From a virus, in the IMG/VR virus record IMGVR_UViG_3300040815_000208, positions 1 through 26,449 of that record: a stretch of 26,449 nucleotides of DNA. The stretch is one strand, 5' to 3'. A program made the position numbers and the translations under genes. Shown here piece after piece: positions 2,908-16,760 of the stretch. Below the pieces are notes generated by a model. It searched no databases and was not told the origin of the DNA. It saw only the letters and a list, made by a program, of their open reading frames with translations. How positions within the stretch are numbered: position 1 is the stretch's first letter; each line of letters starts with the position of its first letter.

Positions 2908-5403
2908 TTACTTATATCCTCTGCGTCTTGCTTCTCTAAGTAGCGCACCTTTGCTAAGTCCGGTTTCTGCTTTTAGTTTAGCAATATAAGCTCGTCTGTC
3001 TCTAGCGTTTTGCGCGGCTCTTTTATTTGACTCGTCGAGCTGTCTTCTACGTTCTTCGCTCATTGATCTAGTAGTACTGCCGCCTCCTGTGACTGTTTCA
3101 GTGGTCGTACTAGTTCCTGTTGATGTTTGTGTTACTGTAGTTGTGGTTTGATTAACTCCGGGAGTTTTTGTTACCACAGTACCAGTTACAGACTTATCGC
3201 CAGTAAAGTTATCATACCAGCCGTCGCTGTAACCTAAGCCGCCATCAGTATCACTTTGTACATTTGCACTAACACCTGTTTGGAAATAGTCGTCATAATA
3301 ACTAGTCATATCATTGTTATCTGGTACTATAGTTGTACCTGGAATAGGACGAGGGTCGATATAATTGCCTTCTCTGTATTCGGCTGCAATCTCCCCGGCA
3401 CCGCTTGCCCAACTAACCATTGTCATTCCTGCGATTGTATCCACATCGTCGTCTTCATCAAGTGCGCCATAACTATAAGCATCTTGCATGCTGTTAAATG
3501 CATCTGCGTAGAACATATTTTCTTGTGTAAATTCACTAGTTAAAAATGCTACCGCGCTGTCTATGCCGTCTTTACCTGTCCATAGTTTGTCATCGGTCAA
3601 CTGTCCATTGAAAAATGCTTCAGGCCTTACAAACCCATTCTTCTGCAGATTCTCTACTGTTGCTCCGTACTTGCCTAATGCGCCTGTAAGAGAATTAGTG
3701 AAGTTGTGTACACCATTGCTACCAGCTAGTGTTGCGGCGCCTGCTGCAAGATTTCTAGTTACTTTTGGATCTAATTTACCAAGCGCAACATTTGCAATGT
3801 TTTCTTTGGCAATTACAGTAGCTGGTATCTTTTTATCGTTAGTTAGATTTTTAACACGGTCAATGCCAGTAGTCTTTTTCTTAGATACACTTTTGGGTAT
3901 AGCAGGATTGAGTGCTGCGCCTCCTTTAATATCATCAATGTCAACCGCTGTATATACTGTTTCTTGAGTAGTGGTTTGATGCTCAACATATGGCTCGTGT
4001 GTTGGCACACGATCAACACTAGTGCGTAAGTCTTTGTTGGCGTCCCAAAATCCCTTTGCATTTGGTTGTGTATCTTTTTTATCTGTTTGTGCTGCTTTGT
4101 TCTGCTTACTTGCGGCAGCCGCTGGACTTTGTAGTGCAACACAACTACCTTGAATTGCGATAACACTTGCGGCTTTAATATTCATCATCGATCCTGCTTG
4201 GATATTAACTCCGCTACCACTTTTAACGTGCACGCCTGCTCCCCCATAAACAAAAGCAGAACCTTTGTCGCTGTAAAGATTTACCATACCTACACCTTCT
4301 AAATGTAAGTTAGCACCTGCTACCATTTGTATAGTTGAGCCTGCATGAAACTTCATACTACCATCTGTATGGAAGTTCATACTCTGACTACGTAGATTTA
4401 TATTAGTTTTGCTGTATACATCTACTTGTCCTAGACTGTCCATTTGTATCCATGCAGTACCTTTGCTGTTGCCGATATAAATTAAATCTTCAGTATCGTG
4501 TAAGAGTATCTGGTGTCCGGCGGCTGTACGGAAACGCATAAGGTTGTTATTACCTTCCATATCGCCATCATCTAAAACTAACGCATGACCTTTAGCTCGA
4601 GCATACCTACCTTCAACTGCACTTGCTTGTGATTCATTTAAATCTCCGCCTGCTGCTAGAGTTTGGTTAATGTTAGTTTGTTCTATCTTAGTACCGCCTT
4701 GAAGGATCCTGCGACCCTTGGTACTAATACCAATAACCTCACTGGGTGTTTCTCTTGTGTAACTACTTGTGGTTAAACCTCTAATTTCATCTTGGTCTAG
4801 TCCTTGATTTTTTAAAACTCTAGCAGTGTTTGTATCAAGTGCTCGTTTTGGTGTTAGAAAGTTGCTTAGTTTACCAACATCATTATCTGTGTCGTTGAAC
4901 TCGAGTGTTGGTGCTTTTGTATGTCTAACCAGATCCGGGTTCTTCGTAAAGTTTGTGCTTGCACTGCTCTCCGGTACACTTTGTACCATATAGATATCTG
5001 GTGCACACGCAAACCAAAATCCATCAGCGCCACGTCCTTCTGGAAACACGCATAAAACTCTTGTGCCAACATCTGGCGCAGGAAACATAATGCCACTAGT
5101 GTTTTTTACAGCTTCTAGGTTATCGCCGCTTTTGTCTAAAGTTTTTCCAAGTGCGTTTGTTTGTGTAGTTCTACTGTAAAAGGGAGTTGCATATTTTACA
5201 CTGCGCCATTGTGTCTTATCATCTTCTCTAGCTTGGTCACTGAAAGTAGGCACAAACACCATAATGGTGCCACTACGTGTTGGATGGCTGTTTACTTTAA
5301 CTACACCTATAACAACACCTTTATCTTCGCGGATACCTCTAACTTCTTCTGTTTTAAAGTCTCTATCGCCGCCTTTAGAGCCGCCTCTGATGTTAGTTGG
5401 CAT
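2908..5403 (-). CDS. gp5: Baseplate central hub / spike protein gp5, without a T4-type lysozyme domain
   Basis: This 831-residue protein is the trimeric spike and hub that pierces the outer membrane. Residues about 25-140 form the OB-fold-like N-terminal domain (GVVIGVVKVNSHPTRSG, then FPAPDVGTRVLCVFPEG). Residues about 260-430 are the repetitive triple-stranded beta-helix, rich in short strands such as GVHVKSGSGVNIQAG. T4 gp5 has a lysozyme domain between these; here residues 145-260 contain nothing resembling it. A later domain at about 560-690 (GKYGATVENLQKNGF, WTGKDGIDSAVAFL) matches a domain I recall from marine phage gp5 proteins. A Thr-rich stretch at 740-779 ends in TGGGSTTR, followed by a basic helical tail. 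AGGAG lies before the ATG, with gp25 7 bases downstream. Identity as gp5 is strong; the role of the C-terminal domains is unknown. Confidence 0.88.
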   Translation of the reverse strand: MPTNIRGGSKGGDRDFKTEEVRGIREDKGVVIGVVKVNSHPTRSGTIMVFVPTFSDQAREDDKTQWRSVKYATPFYSRTTQTNALGKTLDKSGDNLEAVKNTSGIMFPAPDVGTRVLCVFPEGRGADGFWFACAPDIYMVQSVPESSASTNFTKNPDLVRHTKAPTLEFNDTDNDVGKLSNFLTPKRALDTNTARVLKNQGLDQDEIRGLTTSSYTRETPSEVIGISTKGRRILQGGTKIEQTNINQTLAAGGDLNESQASAVEGRYARAKGHALVLDDGDMEGNNNLMRFRTAAGHQILLHDTEDLIYIGNSKGTAWIQMDSLGQVDVYSKTNINLRSQSMNFHTDGSMKFHAGSTIQMVAGANLHLEGVGMVNLYSDKGSAFVYGGAGVHVKSGSGVNIQAGSMMNIKAASVIAIQGSCVALQSPAAAASKQNKAAQTDKKDTQPNAKGFWDANKDLRTSVDRVPTHEPYVEHQTTTQETVYTAVDIDDIKGGAALNPAIPKSVSKKKTTGIDRVKNLTNDKKIPATVIAKENIANVALGKLDPKVTRNLAAGAATLAGSNGVHNFTNSLTGALGKYGATVENLQKNGFVRPEAFFNGQLTDDKLWTGKDGIDSAVAFLTSEFTQENMFYADAFNSMQDAYSYGALDEDDDVDTIAGMTMVSWASGAGEIAAEYREGNYIDPRPIPGTTIVPDNNDMTSYYDDYFQTGVSANVQSDTDGGLGYSDGWYDNFTGDKSVTGTVVTKTPGVNQTTTTVTQTSTGTSTTTETVTGGGSTTRSMSEERRRQLDESNKRAAQNARDRRAYIAKLKAETGLSKGALLREARRRGYK

Positions 5404-5421: not shown

Positions 5422-8400
5422 TTACGCAATTCTAGTAGTGGTACCATCAGCTTCAGTTCTAATTACTGTTCCGTCCGCAAGTCTAGTTGTGCTGCCGCCA
5501 CCTGTTCTTATTTCTATGTTTTGTGTGAAAGTCCTCTGTTGTGGAGTATCTGCTGCAACAACATCAACTGCTGGCACAACAGGAAACTCTTGTAGAGGTG
5601 TTTGTTGTATTTCTTGTATATCAAAAGGAATACCAGTGCCTTCGTCTTGTAGCTCTTGAGGAGCTAATTGATCAAGCTCGGCGCCAATTTTTGGAACAGT
5701 ATTTGTTGCAATACTAGTTATAGAACTTTGCGCTGCACTAGATAGTTTTGCGGCAAGTCCGCTTAAGGGTAGATTGTTTCTACCACCTAGCAAACTAAGT
5801 AAGAATTGTTTTTGATCATCCTGTGCTTTTTGCCTGCGTTCTGAATTCTTCAGTGCTTCTTTACTACGAGCAATCTTGCCATTTACAGGTTGCATCTTGG
5901 CTCTAACACCACGAAGTTGTTGTCTAAATATACCTCCACTAAAGGTATTACTTACTTTAATAATCTGATAAACTCCGCTAAACTCTGCTGTGCCATACTT
6001 CTTATTAACATTAGGATCTGCAAATCCTGTTAAGTCATCATAGTCTGTTGGAGTTTTGAAATTCAATTGAACATAAGGAGGCGTTAGGTCATAGTTAATA
6101 GTTCCGTCTGGCATAAATGGTACACTATAAACTTTGCCTTGGTTTCCCTGTGGTTGGAAGAATCCATCTCCTGTGGGCAAGAAAGCAGGATCTCCTATAA
6201 TACTAAAATCACACTGAATCAAATCTGTACCATCATTAAGAATAGTACCCATTAAGTCTTTTGCACGTTTATCCTCTACAGTTTCATCATCTGCAACGGT
6301 CTGTCCTTGATTACTTTGTGGAGTGTCTTTTGTTTGCGGACTTATTGTATTTGGAGTTTTGTCATTCTCAGGATTACCAGTACCTAGAGTTACTGCTTGA
6401 TAGTAAGCCATGTTGAAATCAAGTTTAAGATCAAGTACATGCTTGTTCTGACCGGTGAAGATATAGTCATAAATTTTGTGTACACCTTCGCCTTTTGGTT
6501 TACTTTTGGGTGCCCATGGGTAATCATTGTAGAACACACCATTGGTTTGCACTGTCCATGTTATTTCAAATTTGTATCTACCTTGTTTTTTGTCCCAACC
6601 TAAGCAGTCAGTAATCTGAGGTACAACCTTAAACCATTTGATTGGTTTGTCTAACTGTTCTTTATTCGCTGCACTTTTTTGTAGATCACTTATAATATTT
6701 TCTTTTACATAAGAGCTAGCAACAATTATATAGTTTATTAAATTTATAACACTAGTACCGGCATTAATCTTGAACAGCTTTTTATTTTTTACAAGATTAA
6801 TTTTGCCTTTCATCACGCTACCATACTGCTGGTAAACGTTTTTAGTTTTTTGTGTGGTGTTCAGTGCATCTATTCTTTCGCCAACTAGTTTAGCATCTAG
6901 TATGCTGTCTGCAATATCAAACTTCCAAACTTCAGCAAGATTAGAACTGGGTTCTACCACACGATCTTTTTTGGTTTTTGGATCTTTGATAGTTTTTCTT
7001 TGAGTCTGTGCTTTGAAATGGTTATTAATAGCCTCAGGTAAACTGATTGCTTTTTCCCCTAGTACATCTCTGGTTTCTTCGTAAAATCCTAAACCGTTGG
7101 CAGCTTCATCGTCATCGATTCTAATAGTTTCAGTTGTAACTGCTTGTGCGGCACCTTTTAGAACATCTCCAACTGATCCTGCGCTTACCTGGACGTTCAC
7201 AGGTATAGTACTGCGTAAGGAACTGAATACATCATGGTGGTAAGGTATAGCTGTTATTCTATACTGTGTTCCTGTTGTATCAACGCTAAACTTTATGCTG
7301 GTAATCTTGATAGGGACGTATTTTGGCTTGGCGATATTTTGACTTGGCTTACCAAATTCGTCATATCCCTTAAATTTAATTTCCATTAGATAAGGGGTAT
7401 TGGTATAACTCTGATCTTCTTCTAGACTTTGTTCGCTCTGCTTCTTTAGTCGTTCGAGTAGCGTACACCCATTTGGCTCTGAGATCATAAATTTTATGTT
7501 GATGGCATTTGTGTTTCCTGTCCTAGTACTAGGGTTAGGTCCGATGTTGTCAAATGTAACATCATCTATAAAAAATTCTGTGTTACTGAATTCGCTAGCA
7601 AGTTCTGGATCATTCCCTACGCCACCATTACGCATTAATAAAAACTTAGGTGCTTGTGCTACTGTTTTAGGGGCCTTAAGCATTCTTACATACTCCTTAG
7701 GAGTAAGCATATACAGTGCTATATTATAGGTATAGCTTCCAAAGTTGTCTAGTTCATTTTGTCTTGGATTAATTTCTACAGTAAGATCAGCTTCTAACCC
7801 ACTAGCTTTTTTCTTTGCACTTTGAGCACTTGCGGTTTTTTGCGACTTTGTTATAGCATTTTTATCTTTTGCTGTAGCACTTGCTGGTTTTTCGCTTAAT
7901 TCAACAGCTCCGCTATCGCTATCTCCAAGGGGATCATCGTTTGGATCTAGATCTGCTTCCTGACCTGATGCTGTTTTTGTTGTTGGGGTGCCTGCAAATT
8001 CGCCGCCTTCACCGCCTATCTGTATAGGAGTGCCGCCACCAGATTCTTCTTCATTAATAGAAAAATCCTCATTGCCAAAGTCATCAAAATCGTTTGTAGC
8101 CAATGAATCGTCTTGGAAAAACGCTACCTCTTCTGCATCATCAGCAAGGAAATCGTCGTCGTCAGCAAAGAAACTATCATTACTAAATCCAGCATCTTCG
8201 GCAGCAAAGTCATCTAGCTCAGTACCAAAATCCTCATTACCAAAGTTGTCTAACTCATCATTAAAAAATGCATCATTACTAAATCCAGCATCTTCGGCAG
8301 CAAAGTCATCTAGCTCAGTATCTGTTTCTGTAGCTACTACTGGTTCGTTAGGCTCGCTGTCAAAATTCAAACCAAATTGTTCTAACTGTCCTTGATTAGG

Positions 8401-9759: not shown

Positions 9760-10572
9760 ATGCGTCGTAAAAAGTATCTTAACAACAAAGACTTATTAAA
9801 AGAAATACACAAATCAAAGAATTCGTACAGTAGTTATGTGGATGAAGAGAATGATCATCAGTACGATATTATTCTTCCCAGCTTGGACAGGGTAAACATG
9901 CGTACTGCCGCACAAGCTAAACGCAATCGTGCAGACAGGCTAGCAAAACAAGCATATGAAGATGCTATTGAACAGGGTCAAAAGGTTAAACAAGCCGAGT
10001 TTGCCATAGATTGGAAGAAGATAAACAAGCAGGATCTGGTATTCCGTATCATGACATTTGATCACGTGCCTCTACAGCCAGGTCGTAAGAAGAATCCAAA
10101 AACAGTAGCAGATCATCATACCCAGGTAAACTTCCAACCTTTCCAACACTATCGTTATAACGACAAAGATGAACTAGTATGCGTTGGGAAAAGTCATTGG
10201 GTAGGTGGCATGGAGAATGGCTACTTCAGTAAAGATCATGGAGACATGACACGTAAACTTGCCATGATGTTTATGAAACTGGTAGAACGTTATGGCACAC
10301 GTTCAAACTGGAGAGGCTATACCTATAATGATGAGATGCAGAGTGCAGCTCTACTACAGTTGTGTCAGATTGGACTACAGTTTGATGAAAGCAAAAGTCA
10401 AAATCCATTTGCTTACTATACTGCAACCATTACTAATAGTTTCACAAGAGTACTAAACCTTGAGAAGAAGGGTCAAAACATACGTGATGATATACTTGAA
10501 CAGAATGGTCTGATGCCAAGTTACACACGTCAGTTTGCGAACGAGGACGCAAAGAAGAATGAATCTATTTAA
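9760..10572 (+). CDS. gp55: Late transcription sigma factor gp55
   Basis: Gp55 replaces sigma70 on host RNA polymerase and recognises late promoters. The sigma region-2-like core is at residues 164-240: MTRKLAMMFMKLVERYG, then RGYTYNDEMQSAAL, FDESKSQNPFAYYTATITNS and a basic LEKKGQNIRDD. The product is 270 residues against 185 in T4, mostly because of a long basic N-terminal part. The C-terminus (TRQFANEDAKKNESI) shows no hydrophobic clamp-binding tail of the T4 SLDFL type. Its last 14 bases overlap the ATG of the truncated gene 47, which points to an original gp55-gp47 junction. TTAGGA precedes the ATG. It is the first plus-strand gene, divergent from the baseplate genes its product is expected to switch on. 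Confidence 0.88.
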   Translation: MRRKKYLNNKDLLKEIHKSKNSYSSYVDEENDHQYDIILPSLDRVNMRTAAQAKRNRADRLAKQAYEDAIEQGQKVKQAEFAIDWKKINKQDLVFRIMTFDHVPLQPGRKKNPKTVADHHTQVNFQPFQHYRYNDKDELVCVGKSHWVGGMENGYFSKDHGDMTRKLAMMFMKLVERYGTRSNWRGYTYNDEMQSAALLQLCQIGLQFDESKSQNPFAYYTATITNSFTRVLNLEKKGQNIRDDILEQNGLMPSYTRQFANEDAKKNESI

Positions 10573-10888
10573 AAAAGCGATTTTCTTCACAGACATTCAC
10601 TTTGGCTTAAAGTCTAACAGTAAGACGCATAATCAGGACTGTTTGGATTTTATTGACTTTGTTATTGAACAGGGCAAAGCCAACAACTGTGAGACATGTG
10701 TGTTCTTGGGCGACTGGCATCATAACCGTGCCAGCCTAAACATCAGCACACTAAACTACAGTGTTCGTGCATTTGATAAGCTAAGTGAAAGTTTTGCACA
10801 GGTGGTATTCCTTCCTGGCAATCACGACGAGCACTATCGTGATACACGAGAAATGAACAGTGTGGTGTGGGCTAAGAAGTGGGACAAT
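10559..10888 (+). repeat. Gene 47 5' duplication, copy 1
   Basis: These 330 bases align without gaps to 11676-12005. I count 42 mismatches (about 87% identity). Twenty-two fall in the first 90 bases and only one in about the last 60. Similarity ends abruptly at the GACAAT shared by both copies. Confidence 0.9.
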
Positions 10889-10900
10889 CTTTTCCTATGA
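10559..10900 (+). pseudogene. gp47: Truncated 5' copy of gene 47 (Mre11-like nuclease fragment)
   Basis: These 113 codons repeat the N-terminal 110 residues of the full gene 47 downstream, with only four internal differences. The phosphodiesterase motifs D12-x-H14, GDWHH (51-55) and GNHD (87-90) are present. After residue 110 the frame adds three unrelated residues and stops, so the later metal ligands (GHFH in the full copy) and the C-terminal half are missing; nuclease activity is not expected. I chose the ATG at 10559 because it matches the full-length N-terminus; a start at 10535 would only add gp55-overlapping codons. The TGA overlaps the next ATG (ATGA). A remaining role could be to carry ribosomes to the SGNH gene, which has no clear ribosome binding site of its own. 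Confidence 0.85.
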
Positions 10901-11679
10901 AAGTTTTAATAACGGGTTGTTCATTTAGTGCAGGGGGGGGTTGGTTAGAATCTAACTTACACTATCATTATTCTCAAATATTGCAAAATAGCACAAATTG
11001 GCAATTGGTAAATCGAGCAGTTGGCGGATGCAGTAATAGAGAAATTTCCCTCCGTACTGTTGAAAACTGTCTGCTTGATTATTATGATTTCTGCATCGTG
11101 CAGTGGAGTAGCCTACACAGACTTTGGTTATACGAAGCCGAACACAATATCGACAACAAAACTCAAATTTTTCCTAGTACATGTGGGTGGGGGGACCTCA
11201 ATGCTGCTACCAAATTGTCAAAAATGATGATTGGAAGATATCTGAATGACTACATGGCACTTAAACAGTGGTTTTTGGATCAAATATCCTTGCAAGCATT
11301 TTTTGAAAAAAATCATATCAAACATGTTTTTATTAGAGGATTTCCTAACTATTGCCCGGATATACAAAAAATTCTAGACCAAGGGACGTTTTCATCGATT
11401 CCTGAGATAGAAATTCCCACTAATATCAAAAAAATTTTAAACTTTGAAGAGAACCCCGATGATTACTTGTACGATAAGATTTTAACTTTGATAAAATTGT
11501 ATCAGTTAATAGACAAATCAAAATGTATTGGGTATAATACTAACAATACCAACTATGGACTTTTGGAAAATTTTTCTAACGATCGGGCTGACGATGGGAT
11601 GCATCCTGGAAAACAACCCAATCAGTTACTATCGCAACTCATACTTGATTACTGCTATACTACAGGAATAAAATTTTGA
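10897..11679 (+). CDS. SGNH/GDSL-hydrolase-like protein inserted in gene 47
   Basis: This 260-residue protein has the blocks of SGNH-fold esterases: GCSFSAG at 7-13 (candidate nucleophile Ser9), GGCSNREI at 43-50 (candidate oxyanion Gly/Asn) and DDGMHPG at 232-238 (candidate D233-x-x-H236). Such enzymes remove acyl groups from sugars or lipids; the substrate here is unknown. It has no signal peptide or membrane segment. The ATG at 10897 overlaps the stop of the truncated gene 47 (ATGA), and its own TGA overlaps the TTG start of the full gene 47 (TTGA). The gene is more AT-rich than its neighbours (15 G/C in 11281-11340), suggesting transfer. A run of eight G at 10933-10940 follows the nucleophile codon. 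Fold family is likely; activity is inferred from motifs only. Confidence 0.75.
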   Translation: MKVLITGCSFSAGGGWLESNLHYHYSQILQNSTNWQLVNRAVGGCSNREISLRTVENCLLDYYDFCIVQWSSLHRLWLYEAEHNIDNKTQIFPSTCGWGDLNAATKLSKMMIGRYLNDYMALKQWFLDQISLQAFFEKNHIKHVFIRGFPNYCPDIQKILDQGTFSSIPEIEIPTNIKKILNFEENPDDYLYDKILTLIKLYQLIDKSKCIGYNTNNTNYGLLENFSNDRADDGMHPGKQPNQLLSQLILDYCYTTGIKF

Positions 11680-12005
11680 ATCTTTTTAAAAAAGCAATAT
11701 TCTTTACAGACATACACTTCGGGCTTAAATCAAACTCAAGAATACACAATCAAGACTGTTTGGACTTTATTGACTTTGTTATTGAACAAGGCAAGGCCAA
11801 CAACTGTGAAACTTGTGTGTTCTTGGGCGACTGGCATCACAATCGTGCCAGTCTAAACATCAGTACACTAAACTACAGTGTTCGTGCATTTGATAAGTTG
11901 AGTGATAGTTTTGCACAGGTAATATTTTTACCAGGCAATCATGATGAGCACTATCGTGATACACGAGAAATGAACAGTGTAGTGTGGGCTAAGAAGTGGG
12001 ACAAT
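11676..12005 (+). repeat. Gene 47 5' duplication, copy 2
   Basis: Partner of 10559-10888. This copy continues into the intact gene. Most of the 42 differences are third-position changes; the residue changes are K22R, T23I, E77D and V83I, plus ATG to TTG at the start. Confidence 0.9.
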
Positions 12006-12686
12006 GTTCGACTGTTTGATGACATCACAGAAGAAGGTGATGTCTGTGTTATGCCATGGTTAGTGGGTAAAGAGTTTGCTCGAGTTCCTAAGATTGAAGC
12101 CAAGTATATGTTTGGTCATTTGGAACTACCTAACTTCTACATGAACGCAATGGTGCGTATGCCCGACGTAGGTGAACTCAAGCGTGAGGACCTGCGTAGT
12201 GAAACAGTTTATACAGGACATTTCCACAAACGACAGACGCACAAAAACATCACATACATGGGTAATGCGTTTCCACACAACTATGCAGATGCAGGCGATG
12301 ATGAGCGCGGCGTAATGATCCTAGAATGGGGCAAAGATCCGGAATATATTGCCTGGCCTGATGCTCCCAAGTATAGACGTTACATGTTAAGTGATGTATT
12401 AGCAAACACAGACAATCTATTGAAACCTAACATGTATTGTCGTGTTGAACTGGACATTGACATCAGCTACGAAGAAGCAAACTTTATCAAGGAGCAGTTT
12501 ATCCCAGAGTTTAGTTTACGTGAACTTGCTCTTATACCTAGAGTTGGCGAAGAGGATCACGCACAAGAGTTCGAAGGCGAAGTCAACTTTGAGAGTGTAG
12601 ACAGCATTGTAACATCACACCTAACACAGTTAGACAGTCCCCAATACGACAAAACTCTCATGTTGGATATTTACAGGAATCTATAA
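11676..12686 (+). CDS. gp47: Recombination endonuclease subunit gp47 (Mre11-like), full length
   Basis: Gp47 is the nuclease subunit of the gp46/gp47 complex that resects DNA ends in recombination-dependent replication. Metallophosphoesterase motifs are all present: D12-x-H14, GDWHH (51-55), GNHD (87-90), FGHLE (146-150) and GHFH (181-184). The length of 336 matches T4 (339). The start must be the TTG at 11676: it aligns with the ATG of the truncated copy, AGGA lies 8 bases before it, and no in-frame ATG occurs until about residue 99. It overlaps the SGNH stop by three bases. Its partner gp46 is 1 kb downstream, separated by an unknown gene and a sulfotransferase gene. Identification is firm. 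Confidence 0.93.
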   Translation: MNLFKKAIFFTDIHFGLKSNSRIHNQDCLDFIDFVIEQGKANNCETCVFLGDWHHNRASLNISTLNYSVRAFDKLSDSFAQVIFLPGNHDEHYRDTREMNSVVWAKKWDNVRLFDDITEEGDVCVMPWLVGKEFARVPKIEAKYMFGHLELPNFYMNAMVRMPDVGELKREDLRSETVYTGHFHKRQTHKNITYMGNAFPHNYADAGDDERGVMILEWGKDPEYIAWPDAPKYRRYMLSDVLANTDNLLKPNMYCRVELDIDISYEEANFIKEQFIPEFSLRELALIPRVGEEDHAQEFEGEVNFESVDSIVTSHLTQLDSPQYDKTLMLDIYRNL

Positions 12687-12713: not shown

Positions 12714-13097
12714 ATGATTAAAAGTTGGATAACTGTAAAATTTAAGGATCCTATCAATGCTAATATTCTAGCAGGAATTAATAACGACTTAGTGCCAGTA
12801 AACATAGGTGCTAGATCAGTTAGAATAAAATACAATAAAAACTACACAGATAAGTTTACGTTACGGCTAAAAGCAATAAATGATACTATCTATGACAATG
12901 GTATTACCATAGAGGAGATACAATTTGAGGATTTTTGGATAATTAAAGATGATAAAATTTTAATGACATCGATTCCTAATAACTCTAGAGTATATGTTGA
13001 ACATTCATCTGATCATAATTTATTGTTTTTTAAAGGGGATCTTACCCTATCATATTATCATCCAATAAGAGAATATTTAAATGATCCATTACGTTAA
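12714..13097 (+). CDS. Hypothetical protein, 127 residues
   Basis: I do not recognise this protein. It begins MIKSWITVKFKDPINANI and is mainly alternating hydrophobic and charged residues, suggesting a beta-rich globular protein; no signal peptide, membrane segment, cysteine cluster or catalytic motif is visible. It starts 28 bases after the gp47 stop without a strong ribosome binding site and overlaps the sulfotransferase ATG by 17 bases, so the two probably form a translational pair. Its AT-rich composition matches the sulfotransferase and SGNH genes rather than gp46/gp47, suggesting it arrived with the sulfotransferase. It is likely a real gene because of the tight packing. Confidence 0.6.
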   Translation: MIKSWITVKFKDPINANILAGINNDLVPVNIGARSVRIKYNKNYTDKFTLRLKAINDTIYDNGITIEEIQFEDFWIIKDDKILMTSIPNNSRVYVEHSSDHNLLFFKGDLTLSYYHPIREYLNDPLR

Positions 13098-13704
13098 CCT
13101 TGGCACTGCTAAGACTGGTACTACGTGGCTATATAATAACTTAATTAAGTCTGATCAAATTGATTATCAAGGGGAAAAAGAACCGGCCGTCTCTCTGTTG
13201 TCTAATGTGGATACCTATAAGTTATACTTTTCTGCGTATAGTTTTAGTCTAAACTTTAATCCCAACCTATGGTCACTAGATTATGATCAAATTGAATTTA
13301 TAAAAAAATATGCTAGTTATATAACTATTATACTAAGGAATCCTTATTCATATGCGAATAGCATGTATAACTTTCATGCCAGTACAAACGAAGACGCAGA
13401 ATATTTTCAGTCGATTACACAATCTTTAGATTATGTAGGAATCCTTAAACGATGGCAAAGTGAAAAACTTAAAGTTTTGTTCTATGACGACCTAGAGTAT
13501 AATCCCCAAGAGTTTGTAAATGGTATTACTAAGTATGTCGGGTTAAATGAGGTTTTAGTAGATACTGCTCCTAGTAATGTGACTGCCTACAAGAGAAATA
13601 TTAATCTTGACAGCAAAAGCAAACACCAGTTAGAATATAATATAAAGAATCTTGAGGATTTTATTAATAAAGATTTAGGACACTGGTATAATGTTCAAAC
13701 TTAA
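13081..13704 (+). CDS. Small PAPS-dependent sulfotransferase-like protein
   Basis: The 207-residue product has both cofactor-binding motifs of cytosolic-type and carbohydrate sulfotransferases. LGTAKTGTTWLYNNL at 7-21 is the 5'-phosphosulfate loop (K11, T12, T14, T15), and ITIILRNPYSYANS at 81-94 is the 3'-phosphate site (R86, S94). GEKEP at 31-35 resembles the KEP segment that supplies the catalytic base in carbohydrate sulfotransferases. It would move sulfate from PAPS to an unknown acceptor, perhaps a sugar of the host surface or virion. It is shorter than most family members (about 250-350 residues). It overlaps the upstream unknown gene by 17 bases and gp46 by 14. Composition is very AT-rich (16 G/C in 13201-13260, against 28 in 14341-14400 in gp46), suggesting recent acquisition. 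Confidence 0.75.
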   Translation: MIHYVNLGTAKTGTTWLYNNLIKSDQIDYQGEKEPAVSLLSNVDTYKLYFSAYSFSLNFNPNLWSLDYDQIEFIKKYASYITIILRNPYSYANSMYNFHASTNEDAEYFQSITQSLDYVGILKRWQSEKLKVLFYDDLEYNPQEFVNGITKYVGLNEVLVDTAPSNVTAYKRNINLDSKSKHQLEYNIKNLEDFINKDLGHWYNVQT

Positions 13705-16334: not shown

Positions 16335-16760
16335 ATGACATGGCTATACAATGATGAACCAGTTGAGAATATACCCGAAGATGTAGTAGGGTTCGTTTAC
16401 TTAATTACAAATATTACTAATGGCAAAAAATACATAGGCAAAAAACTAGCTCAATTTAGGCGCACAAGGCCACCACTCAAAGGCAGAAAAAATAAACGAC
16501 GTTCAACAGTAGAATCAGACTGGCGCGATTATTACGGCTCATCAGACAATTTAACGGCAGACATAGAACTACTAGGCAAAGAAAACTTCAAACGTGAAAT
16601 ACTCTTCTATTGTTACAGCAAGGGAGAGTGTAGTTACATTGAAGCAAGAGAACAGTTCAGGCACCGTGTACTAGAATCTGACGAATGGTACAATGGACAT
16701 ATACGAGTCCGTGTACACAAGAGTCAGAAAATTATTACAGAATCAAACAAACAGGCTTAA
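16335..16760 (+). CDS. GIY-YIG family nuclease
   Basis: The 141-residue protein has the GIY-YIG core: GFVYLITN at 19-26 and KKYIGKK at 31-37, with ten residues between FVY and YIG. A basic segment follows (RRTRPPLKGRKNKRR, 42-56) with candidate catalytic arginines, then SDWRDYYGS (61-69) and a late SYIEAREQ (101-108) that can supply the metal-binding glutamate. Similar free-standing proteins are common in marine T4-like phages. It may be a homing-type nicking enzyme or a host/phage DNA-processing nuclease; no DNA-binding domain beyond the basic segment is visible. It starts 30 bases after the radical SAM gene and is directly followed by the structured non-coding stretch. Confidence 0.75.
   Translation: MTWLYNDEPVENIPEDVVGFVYLITNITNGKKYIGKKLAQFRRTRPPLKGRKNKRRSTVESDWRDYYGSSDNLTADIELLGKENFKREILFYCYSKGECSYIEAREQFRHRVLESDEWYNGHIRVRVHKSQKIITESNKQA

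Follow-up and report, generated by a model that had tools for sequence, protein, structure and literature searches.

The closest described parallels to the locus analysed here are the mobile open reading frames (mORFs) of fungal mitochondria, in which an endonuclease gene is joined to a foreign C-terminal end of the host gene and the native end is left behind (PMC3630166). They are found in atp6 of Allomyces macrogynus and in atp6, atp9, cox2 and nad3 of Glomus. The two copies of the gene end differ in nucleotides and encode near-identical protein, the remnant is unused, and transfer between species has been proposed (PMC3630166).

In phage T4, homology on one side of a break suffices for repair, and the other junction is illegitimate (PMC2988022). 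This was shown with introns and free-standing nucleases; that review also deals with intronless homing in T4 and cites Parker, Belisle and Belfort (1999). In the split-gene cases that it reviews (mobA, mobE and seg43) the genes stay split and are not restored by a second copy. T-even phages also readily make and lose repeated segments, as in SegB-driven amplification (PMC13096335). Phage HEG-islands have cargo near core replication genes that is bounded by homing nucleases, and duplicated and restored target-gene ends are absent from the passages that were searched (PMC10448857). For the T6SS clusters of Vibrio cholerae, homology-facilitated illegitimate recombination has been proposed to leave orphan immunity genes: a cassette would enter via a homologous anchor and leave a remnant of the displaced resident gene (PMC5361080). 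Synthetic home-and-rescue gene drives are Cas9-based and place a nuclease gene in an essential gene together with a restoring recoded end (PMC7968924). No description of a replace-and-restore layout in phages was found in the open literature searched.

The window, i.e. the whole stretch of DNA that was analysed, comprises 26,449 nucleotides (positions 1 to 26,449 of IMG/VR virus record IMGVR_UViG_3300040815_000208). It contains a gene for a predicted SGNH-fold protein flanked by a truncated and a complete copy of gp47. As with the mORFs, the insert lies inside a host gene with a divergent copy of one gene end, a foreign end replaces the native one, the remnant is unused, and an empty-site relative is present. 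However, mORFs encode their own mobilising endonuclease and replace the C-terminus, whereas the window insert has an SGNH gene, no homing endonuclease, and a replaced N-terminus. With T4 the window shares T4-type recombination machinery and co-transfer of flanking sequence, and perhaps also one-sided homology and an illegitimate junction. The V. cholerae case differs in that it concerns a bacterial chromosome, effector-immunity modules and array growth, with no reversible repeat pair shown.

Layout of the gp55-gp47 region

The first 330 bp of gp47 are present at 10559–10888 and again at 11676–12005, and 288 of the 330 positions are identical by exact comparison (Table 1). An independent repeat search also found the pair, as a 300 nt core at 87% and as 88% identity over 332 nt (E = 3e-118). 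The duplication around the SGNH-fold gene, which had been claimed in an earlier note on this DNA, is confirmed as real.

Homologues of gp55 in the same place in other phages are annotated 'sigma factor for late transcription', and contig L159 is ~97% identical to the window on the gp55 side and then runs into a plain gp47. The earlier note took copy 1 to be fused to gp55. This is not the case: the two are in different frames and overlap by 14 nt, and the same overlap in different frames is present in the empty-site contigs L001 and L159/L005. Copy 1 is a 113-codon ORF which starts with ATG at 10559 and has 110 gp47 codons, followed, as had been described, by three foreign codons (Leu-Phe-Leu) and TGA at 10898–10900; the remainder of the enzyme is missing. 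Copy 2 is intact, also as described, with a PF00149 metallophosphoesterase domain and a PHROG 100 match, and gp46 with AAA_23/SMC_N lies downstream. Copy 2 is thus a T4 gp47 (SbcD/Mre11-like), which adjoins the gp46 ATPase in the replication operon. The SGNH ATG overlaps the copy 1 stop codon (ATGA, 10897–10900), and the SGNH stop codon TGA (11677–11679) overlaps the TTG start of the full gp47.

Table 1. Features of the gp55-gp47 region, in positions of the window
Feature	Positions	Strand	Basis
gp55-like late sigma factor, intact	9760..10572	+	ORF; 3′ end overlaps start of gp47 copy 1 by 14 nt
gp47 copy 1, truncated, SbcD/Mre11-like N-terminal part	10559..10900	+	PHROG 100, SbcD-like, E=5e-28
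Native (recipient-like) part of copy 1, nt 1–120	10559..10678	+	Identical to L001, close to L003; tree
Presumed exchange interval in copy 1, gp47 nt 121–134	10679..10692	+	14 bp common to both copies; L001 passes here from copy-1 to copy-2 bases
Donor-like part of copy 1, gp47 nt 135–330	10693..10888	+	Groups with L005/L006
8 nt between end of gp47 homology and SGNH start	10889..10896	+	Sequence; comparison with L001; putative illegitimate junction
Cargo gene, predicted SGNH/GDSL-fold protein, 260 aa	10897..11679	+	Alignment, AlphaFold model, Foldseek
gp47 copy 2, complete, 336 codons, TTG start	11676..12686	+	ORF; TTG overlaps SGNH stop
Donor-like 5′ end of copy 2, nt 1–120	11676..11795	+	L005-like deciding sites; tree
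Presumed exchange interval in copy 2, gp47 nt 121–134	11796..11809	+	Sequence comparison with L001
Second cargo insert between gp47 and gp46: orf127 and sulfotransferase	12714..13704	+	28–32% GC

The sole ORF of the insert is the SGNH-fold gene. No nuclease is encoded, as the earlier note had stated, and therefore by the tests made this is not a homing element. An integrase-type insertion was rejected, as the insert has no integrase. The gene had also been described as AT-rich, which holds only moderately (35% GC versus 41% for gp47 and 40% for the window).

The SGNH protein has no match in Pfam, PHROG or NCBIfam, and a PDB sequence search with its profile gave nothing convincing (best E=0.1). 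An AlphaFold model from a seven-sequence alignment has a pLDDT of 76 and a pTM of 0.77, with residues 76–115 poorly modelled. With the model as query, Foldseek matched GDSL/TesA esterases among PDB chains (prob 1.0, best E=7e-5, TM of about 0.4–0.5) and, with a best E=3e-13, SGNH proteins from uncultured phages. The residues expected of an SGNH/GDSL hydrolase are the catalytic Ser (block I), a Gly (block II), an Asn (block III) and the Asp-x-x-His motif (block V). Across the seven sequences Ser9 (in GCS), Gly43/44 and Asp233-x-x-His236 are invariant, and a block III Asn is not evident. The cargo protein is predicted, with moderate confidence, to have an SGNH fold.

The second insert of the window, orf127 and the sulfotransferase gene, has no duplicated flank, and the same pair is found in the same place in L023. 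The pair is 87–90% protein-identical to L023:6008-6989, where gp46 is only 71% identical; it appears to be an AT-rich cargo pair that moves between phages without a scar. A SegE-like GIY-YIG gene (PF19835) is found at 16335–16760, downstream of gp46 and 3.6 kb downstream of gp47, a position that can be compared with the nucleases of HEG-islands. It is conserved across relatives and is therefore not evidently mobile; as it follows gp46 in most of them, it was taken to be resident and rejected as the mover. Its family is labelled NAD synthetase by PHROG 447, which looks like a misannotation. Compared with the window, cultured phages show weak matches only, to distant jumbo phages.

The two gp47 copies and the SGNH-less phage L001

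Copies 1 and 2 differ at 42 of the 330 nt (12.7%), with 33 of the differences in third codon positions. Thirty codons differ synonymously and four differ in the encoded amino acid, besides the change of the start codon from ATG to TTG; if 41 changes were placed at random, about 30 non-synonymous codons would be expected. The dN/dS between the copies is 0.038. When copy 1 is compared with the gp47 N-terminus of L003 and L006, there are one and two amino-acid changes, respectively, and dN/dS is about 0.015. Copy 1 therefore shows no decay. The near-synonymous divergence and the single residue difference from L003 imply that the copies diverged in intact genes and that the truncation is recent.

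Nt 1–115 contain 19 deciding sites, and at 16 of these copy 2 is L005-like. After nt 115 it is L005-like at 32 of 104 sites and L003-like at 72 of 104 (P=1.7e-5 for the contrast with 16/19). In a tree of nt 1–120, copy 1 groups with L001/L003, whereas L005 is the partner of copy 2 (0.987). In the tree of nt 135–330 copy 2 is with L001 (0.954) and copy 1 with L005/L006, a signal that comes from few sites (support 0.54–0.95). These sequence comparisons place the copies in different allele lineages and argue against a plain tandem duplication. If the gp47 5′ end had been duplicated in tandem in one phage, with insertion of the SGNH gene as a later step or as the cause, a 330-bp direct repeat with an insert between would at first sight be the expected product. 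This origin is very improbable, however, as the divergence is almost wholly synonymous in a copy that is too short to be the enzyme, the copies have different allele affinities, and copy 1 is undecayed.

A near-identical phage is L001 (IMG/VR 3300040751_002050, 4.9 kb), which starts at window position 10522 and downstream has one mismatch to the window in ~4.5 kb; on the gp55 side the overlap is only 37 bp, the last 37 nt before gp47, which are shared. L001 is without the SGNH gene, and its gp55 is followed directly by one complete gp47 that starts with ATG. Every one of the 42 variable sites has the copy 1 or the copy 2 base in L001, with no private base across the 330 nt. The blocks are, in order, copy 1 (24 sites), copy 2 (15), copy 1 (2) and copy 2 (1). 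The first switch is in a 14-bp identical stretch (nt 121–134) and the second in an 8-bp identical stretch. L001 is a pure two-copy mosaic, and therefore it and the window are related by homologous exchange between copies.

Foreign with respect to L001 are only nt 1 to ~120 of copy 2 and nt ~135–330 of copy 1; other gp47 sequence is L001-like. The earlier note envisaged a cassette made up of the SGNH gene and a replacement gp47. An insert that brought the SGNH gene with replacement gp47 sequence, left a scar on its left and has a working gp47 on its right is supported, but the arrival of a whole replacement gp47 is not. If the 'donor' (complement) allele is defined as the base absent from L001 at each of the 42 sites, it is closest to L005 at the 5′ end (91.7%, nt 1–120) and overall (92.7%), and over nt 135–330 the values are 96.9% for L006, 95.9% for L003 and 94.4% for L005. 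The L001 gp47 is closest to L003 throughout. The L001/complement pairing is more coherent than that of copy 1 and copy 2, and for this reason an L001-like recipient and an L005-like donor are preferred.

Thus an SGNH gene with a 5′ segment of gp47 was probably exchanged from an L005-like donor into gp47 at nt 121–134, and can be lost again there. The duplication would be what remains of a recent exchange, perhaps triggered by a DNA break, in which two related phages of the marine T4-like type took part. The recipient would be L001-like, with gp55 and then directly gp47, and the donor would have the SGNH gene immediately upstream of an L005-like gp47. The donor piece, made up of the SGNH gene and the first ~330 nt of gp47, would be in a head-to-tail form (a circle or a tandem copy) and would recombine with the recipient inside gp47, in the 14-bp interval. 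The product would have the truncated leftover copy on the left, the SGNH gene in the middle, and on the right a complete gp47 with the first ~120 nt from the donor. The left end of the SGNH gene has no gp47 homology (8 filler nt) and the right end is inside gp47; the donor-like nt 135–330 of copy 1 point to a pre-formed head-to-tail donor piece.

By such an exchange gp47 function would be kept, the gp55, copy 1, SGNH and gp47 frames would stay overlapped (coupled translation is plausible), and the SGNH gene would gain a place in the replication operon. The reverse exchange between the 330-bp repeats would remove the SGNH gene and restore one intact gp47, which is the L001 state. L001 may be ancestor or pop-out; the reaction would be the same either way. 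It should be pointed out that copy 1 has a patch at gp47 nt 267–270 (10825–10828) in common with L001, and the two C's shared at nt 267/270 need an extra patch event, which counts against this reading. The SGNH insert behaves like a passenger that homologous exchange has introduced and keeps harmless, and the locus gives a near base-by-base view of how a cargo gene may enter an essential gene of a lytic phage harmlessly and leave again.

A one-sided, homology-facilitated illegitimate acquisition is unlikely, but has precedent. Here the gp47 end would recombine by homology downstream, the SGNH end would be joined illegitimately at recipient codon 110, and L001 would be a later pop-out; the break was perhaps made by a homing nuclease in trans. 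Acquisition of this type is known in T4 (PMC2988022) and in E. coli conjugation (PMC3240628), and has been proposed for the V. cholerae T6SS arrays (PMC5361080). It is also a good fit for contig L002 (see below), whose left remnant is entirely native and whose insert starts near the presumed cut. However, in the window the recipient remnant would have to agree with the recipient sequence beyond the crossover, and the two differ at about 8–9% of sites: nt 135–330 of copy 1 group with L005/L006, and copy 2 from nt 135 is that of L001. It would be saved only if the crossover were beyond nt 330 and the allele switch in copy 2 matched the L001 switch by chance.

An assembly artefact, either two strains joined in one contig or a chimeric L001, has very little probability. 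Contigs of close phages do have an end in the repeat or close to it (L159 at 10590, L001 from 10522 and L027 from 11934), as expected with coexisting alleles. On the other hand, the copy 1-SGNH junction has no shared sequence for an assembler jump, the L001 switches are inside 14-bp and 8-bp stretches that are too short for a k-mer join, and the distant phage L236 has the SGNH-TTG-gp47 junction too. Assembly error in the window thus appears unlikely. As a separate point, the independent contigs L159, L001 and L027 from near-identical phages suggest that several alleles coexist in the samples.

Whatever its origin, copy 1 might be kept for a function, e.g. as a translation-coupling leader for the SGNH gene or as a gp47-binding regulator. 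The ATGA stop/start overlap, the open frame and the unchanged protein sequence are in line with this. Yet an undecayed state is equally expected from a recent event, and the fragment is in no other phage among 178 distinct loci, which makes a retained function quite improbable.

Gene order in other phages

In a profile scan, SGNH homologues were found on seven further contigs, from about five lineages and at 31–54% identity. In all seven the order is gp55-SGNH-gp47, with the gene cleanly between and no gp47 duplication. The earlier note had proposed a search for such phages as well as for relatives with plain gp55-gp47, and the latter are also present, i.e. L001, L003 and L159/L005. The window's overlap of the SGNH stop with a TTG start of gp47 is present in identical form in L236 (= L081). 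L011/L012 have a different cargo, a radical-SAM-like gene, cleanly in the same gp55-gp47 slot. A near-identical donor, with an L005-like gp47 and the SGNH gene, was not found; the nearest SGNH homologue has 54% protein identity, and its gp47 55%.

Among the 178 distinct loci (2.13 Mb), a partial duplicate at the protein level is present only in the window, L002 and L013, and the gp47 duplication of the window is in no other contig. Clean slots are the rule and the window is the scarred exception. The earlier note had said that an ancient and universal duplication among relatives would refute its proposal; with these loci, that objection does not apply. An exact search of IMG/VR with the copy 1-SGNH junction gave no match, and the window's own record may be excluded there. 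An insert with a partial copy of an adjacent gene at its side is a signature by which recently gained genes can be searched for in phages that are uncultured.

In L008, L013, L014, L018, L025, L045 and L106 the gp47-gp46 gap has a gene of a second SGNH-like family (DUF6071). Both gaps are occupied in L241, by one SGNH gene each.

The same layout around nuclease genes

The earlier note likened the arrangement to that of mobile genes that spare their host gene. This likeness is borne out by L002, L013, L277 and L289, where nuclease genes have the same layout. In L002 (= L084) a GIY-YIG/NUMOD3 homing-nuclease gene is inside gp46 on the opposite strand (6110–6910). L003 is the exact empty-site partner: the two show 100% identity across the 3.3 kb that end at gp46 nt 87, the left remnant included. 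The second gp46 start of L002 has 31 mismatches to L003, all at nt 6–96, and zero from nt 97 to 1758; the recoded 5′ end keeps 24 of 29 residues. The L002 element looks like a natural home-and-rescue element, with nuclease activity and target predicted. Synthetic drives are similar by layout; they are Cas9-based, whereas L002 is predicted from sequence, and the window is without the 'home' part.

In L013 an HNH-like gene (4023–4700), assigned by motif only whereas the L002, L277 and L289 nucleases are assigned by family match, follows about 10 gp46 codons and precedes a new gp46 start; the empty relative is L014 (95%). The same contig also has a radical-SAM/SDR gene with a duplicate of the gp46 3′ end behind it (6395–8290). 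L277 and L289 were found among loci retrieved with the L002 nuclease. L277:3104-4577 has an FkbM methyltransferase 5′ remnant, a GIY-YIG/NUMOD3 nuclease gene and the full gene, and L289:3828-5320 has a 3′ remnant of an ATPase-like gene, a GIY-YIG/NUMOD3 nuclease gene and the full gene. A partial repeat in L299 was not counted, as there is no nuclease between its copies. Since they encode nucleases, L002, L013, L277 and L289 are a closer match to the mORFs than is the window, and the fungal mitochondrial layout is thereby linked to phages.

A recurrent phage class of 'replace-and-restore' elements can be put forward only tentatively and with some doubt. The nuclease cases might be natural home-and-rescue drives, because the recoded end restores the gene and removes the target; the SGNH gene might be a nuclease-less passenger that uses the same route, is moved in trans and is lost via the repeats. 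The finding in the window is real, and the earlier interpretation is partly supported and largely right in spirit. Of greater interest is the wider pattern, and especially the L002/L003 pair, which is a testable natural counterpart of engineered home-and-rescue drives.

Rfam gave no match in the window, L237, L002 or L013, and there is therefore no known intron in these. L237 (1–1611) has a gp55 with no Pfam match to an in-frame insertion of ~310 residues, which starts with Cys and ends with Gly-Asn before Thr (GY/CVDHGTQALT...VYLTGN/TYNEE, with slashes at the insertion ends) and appears intein-like.
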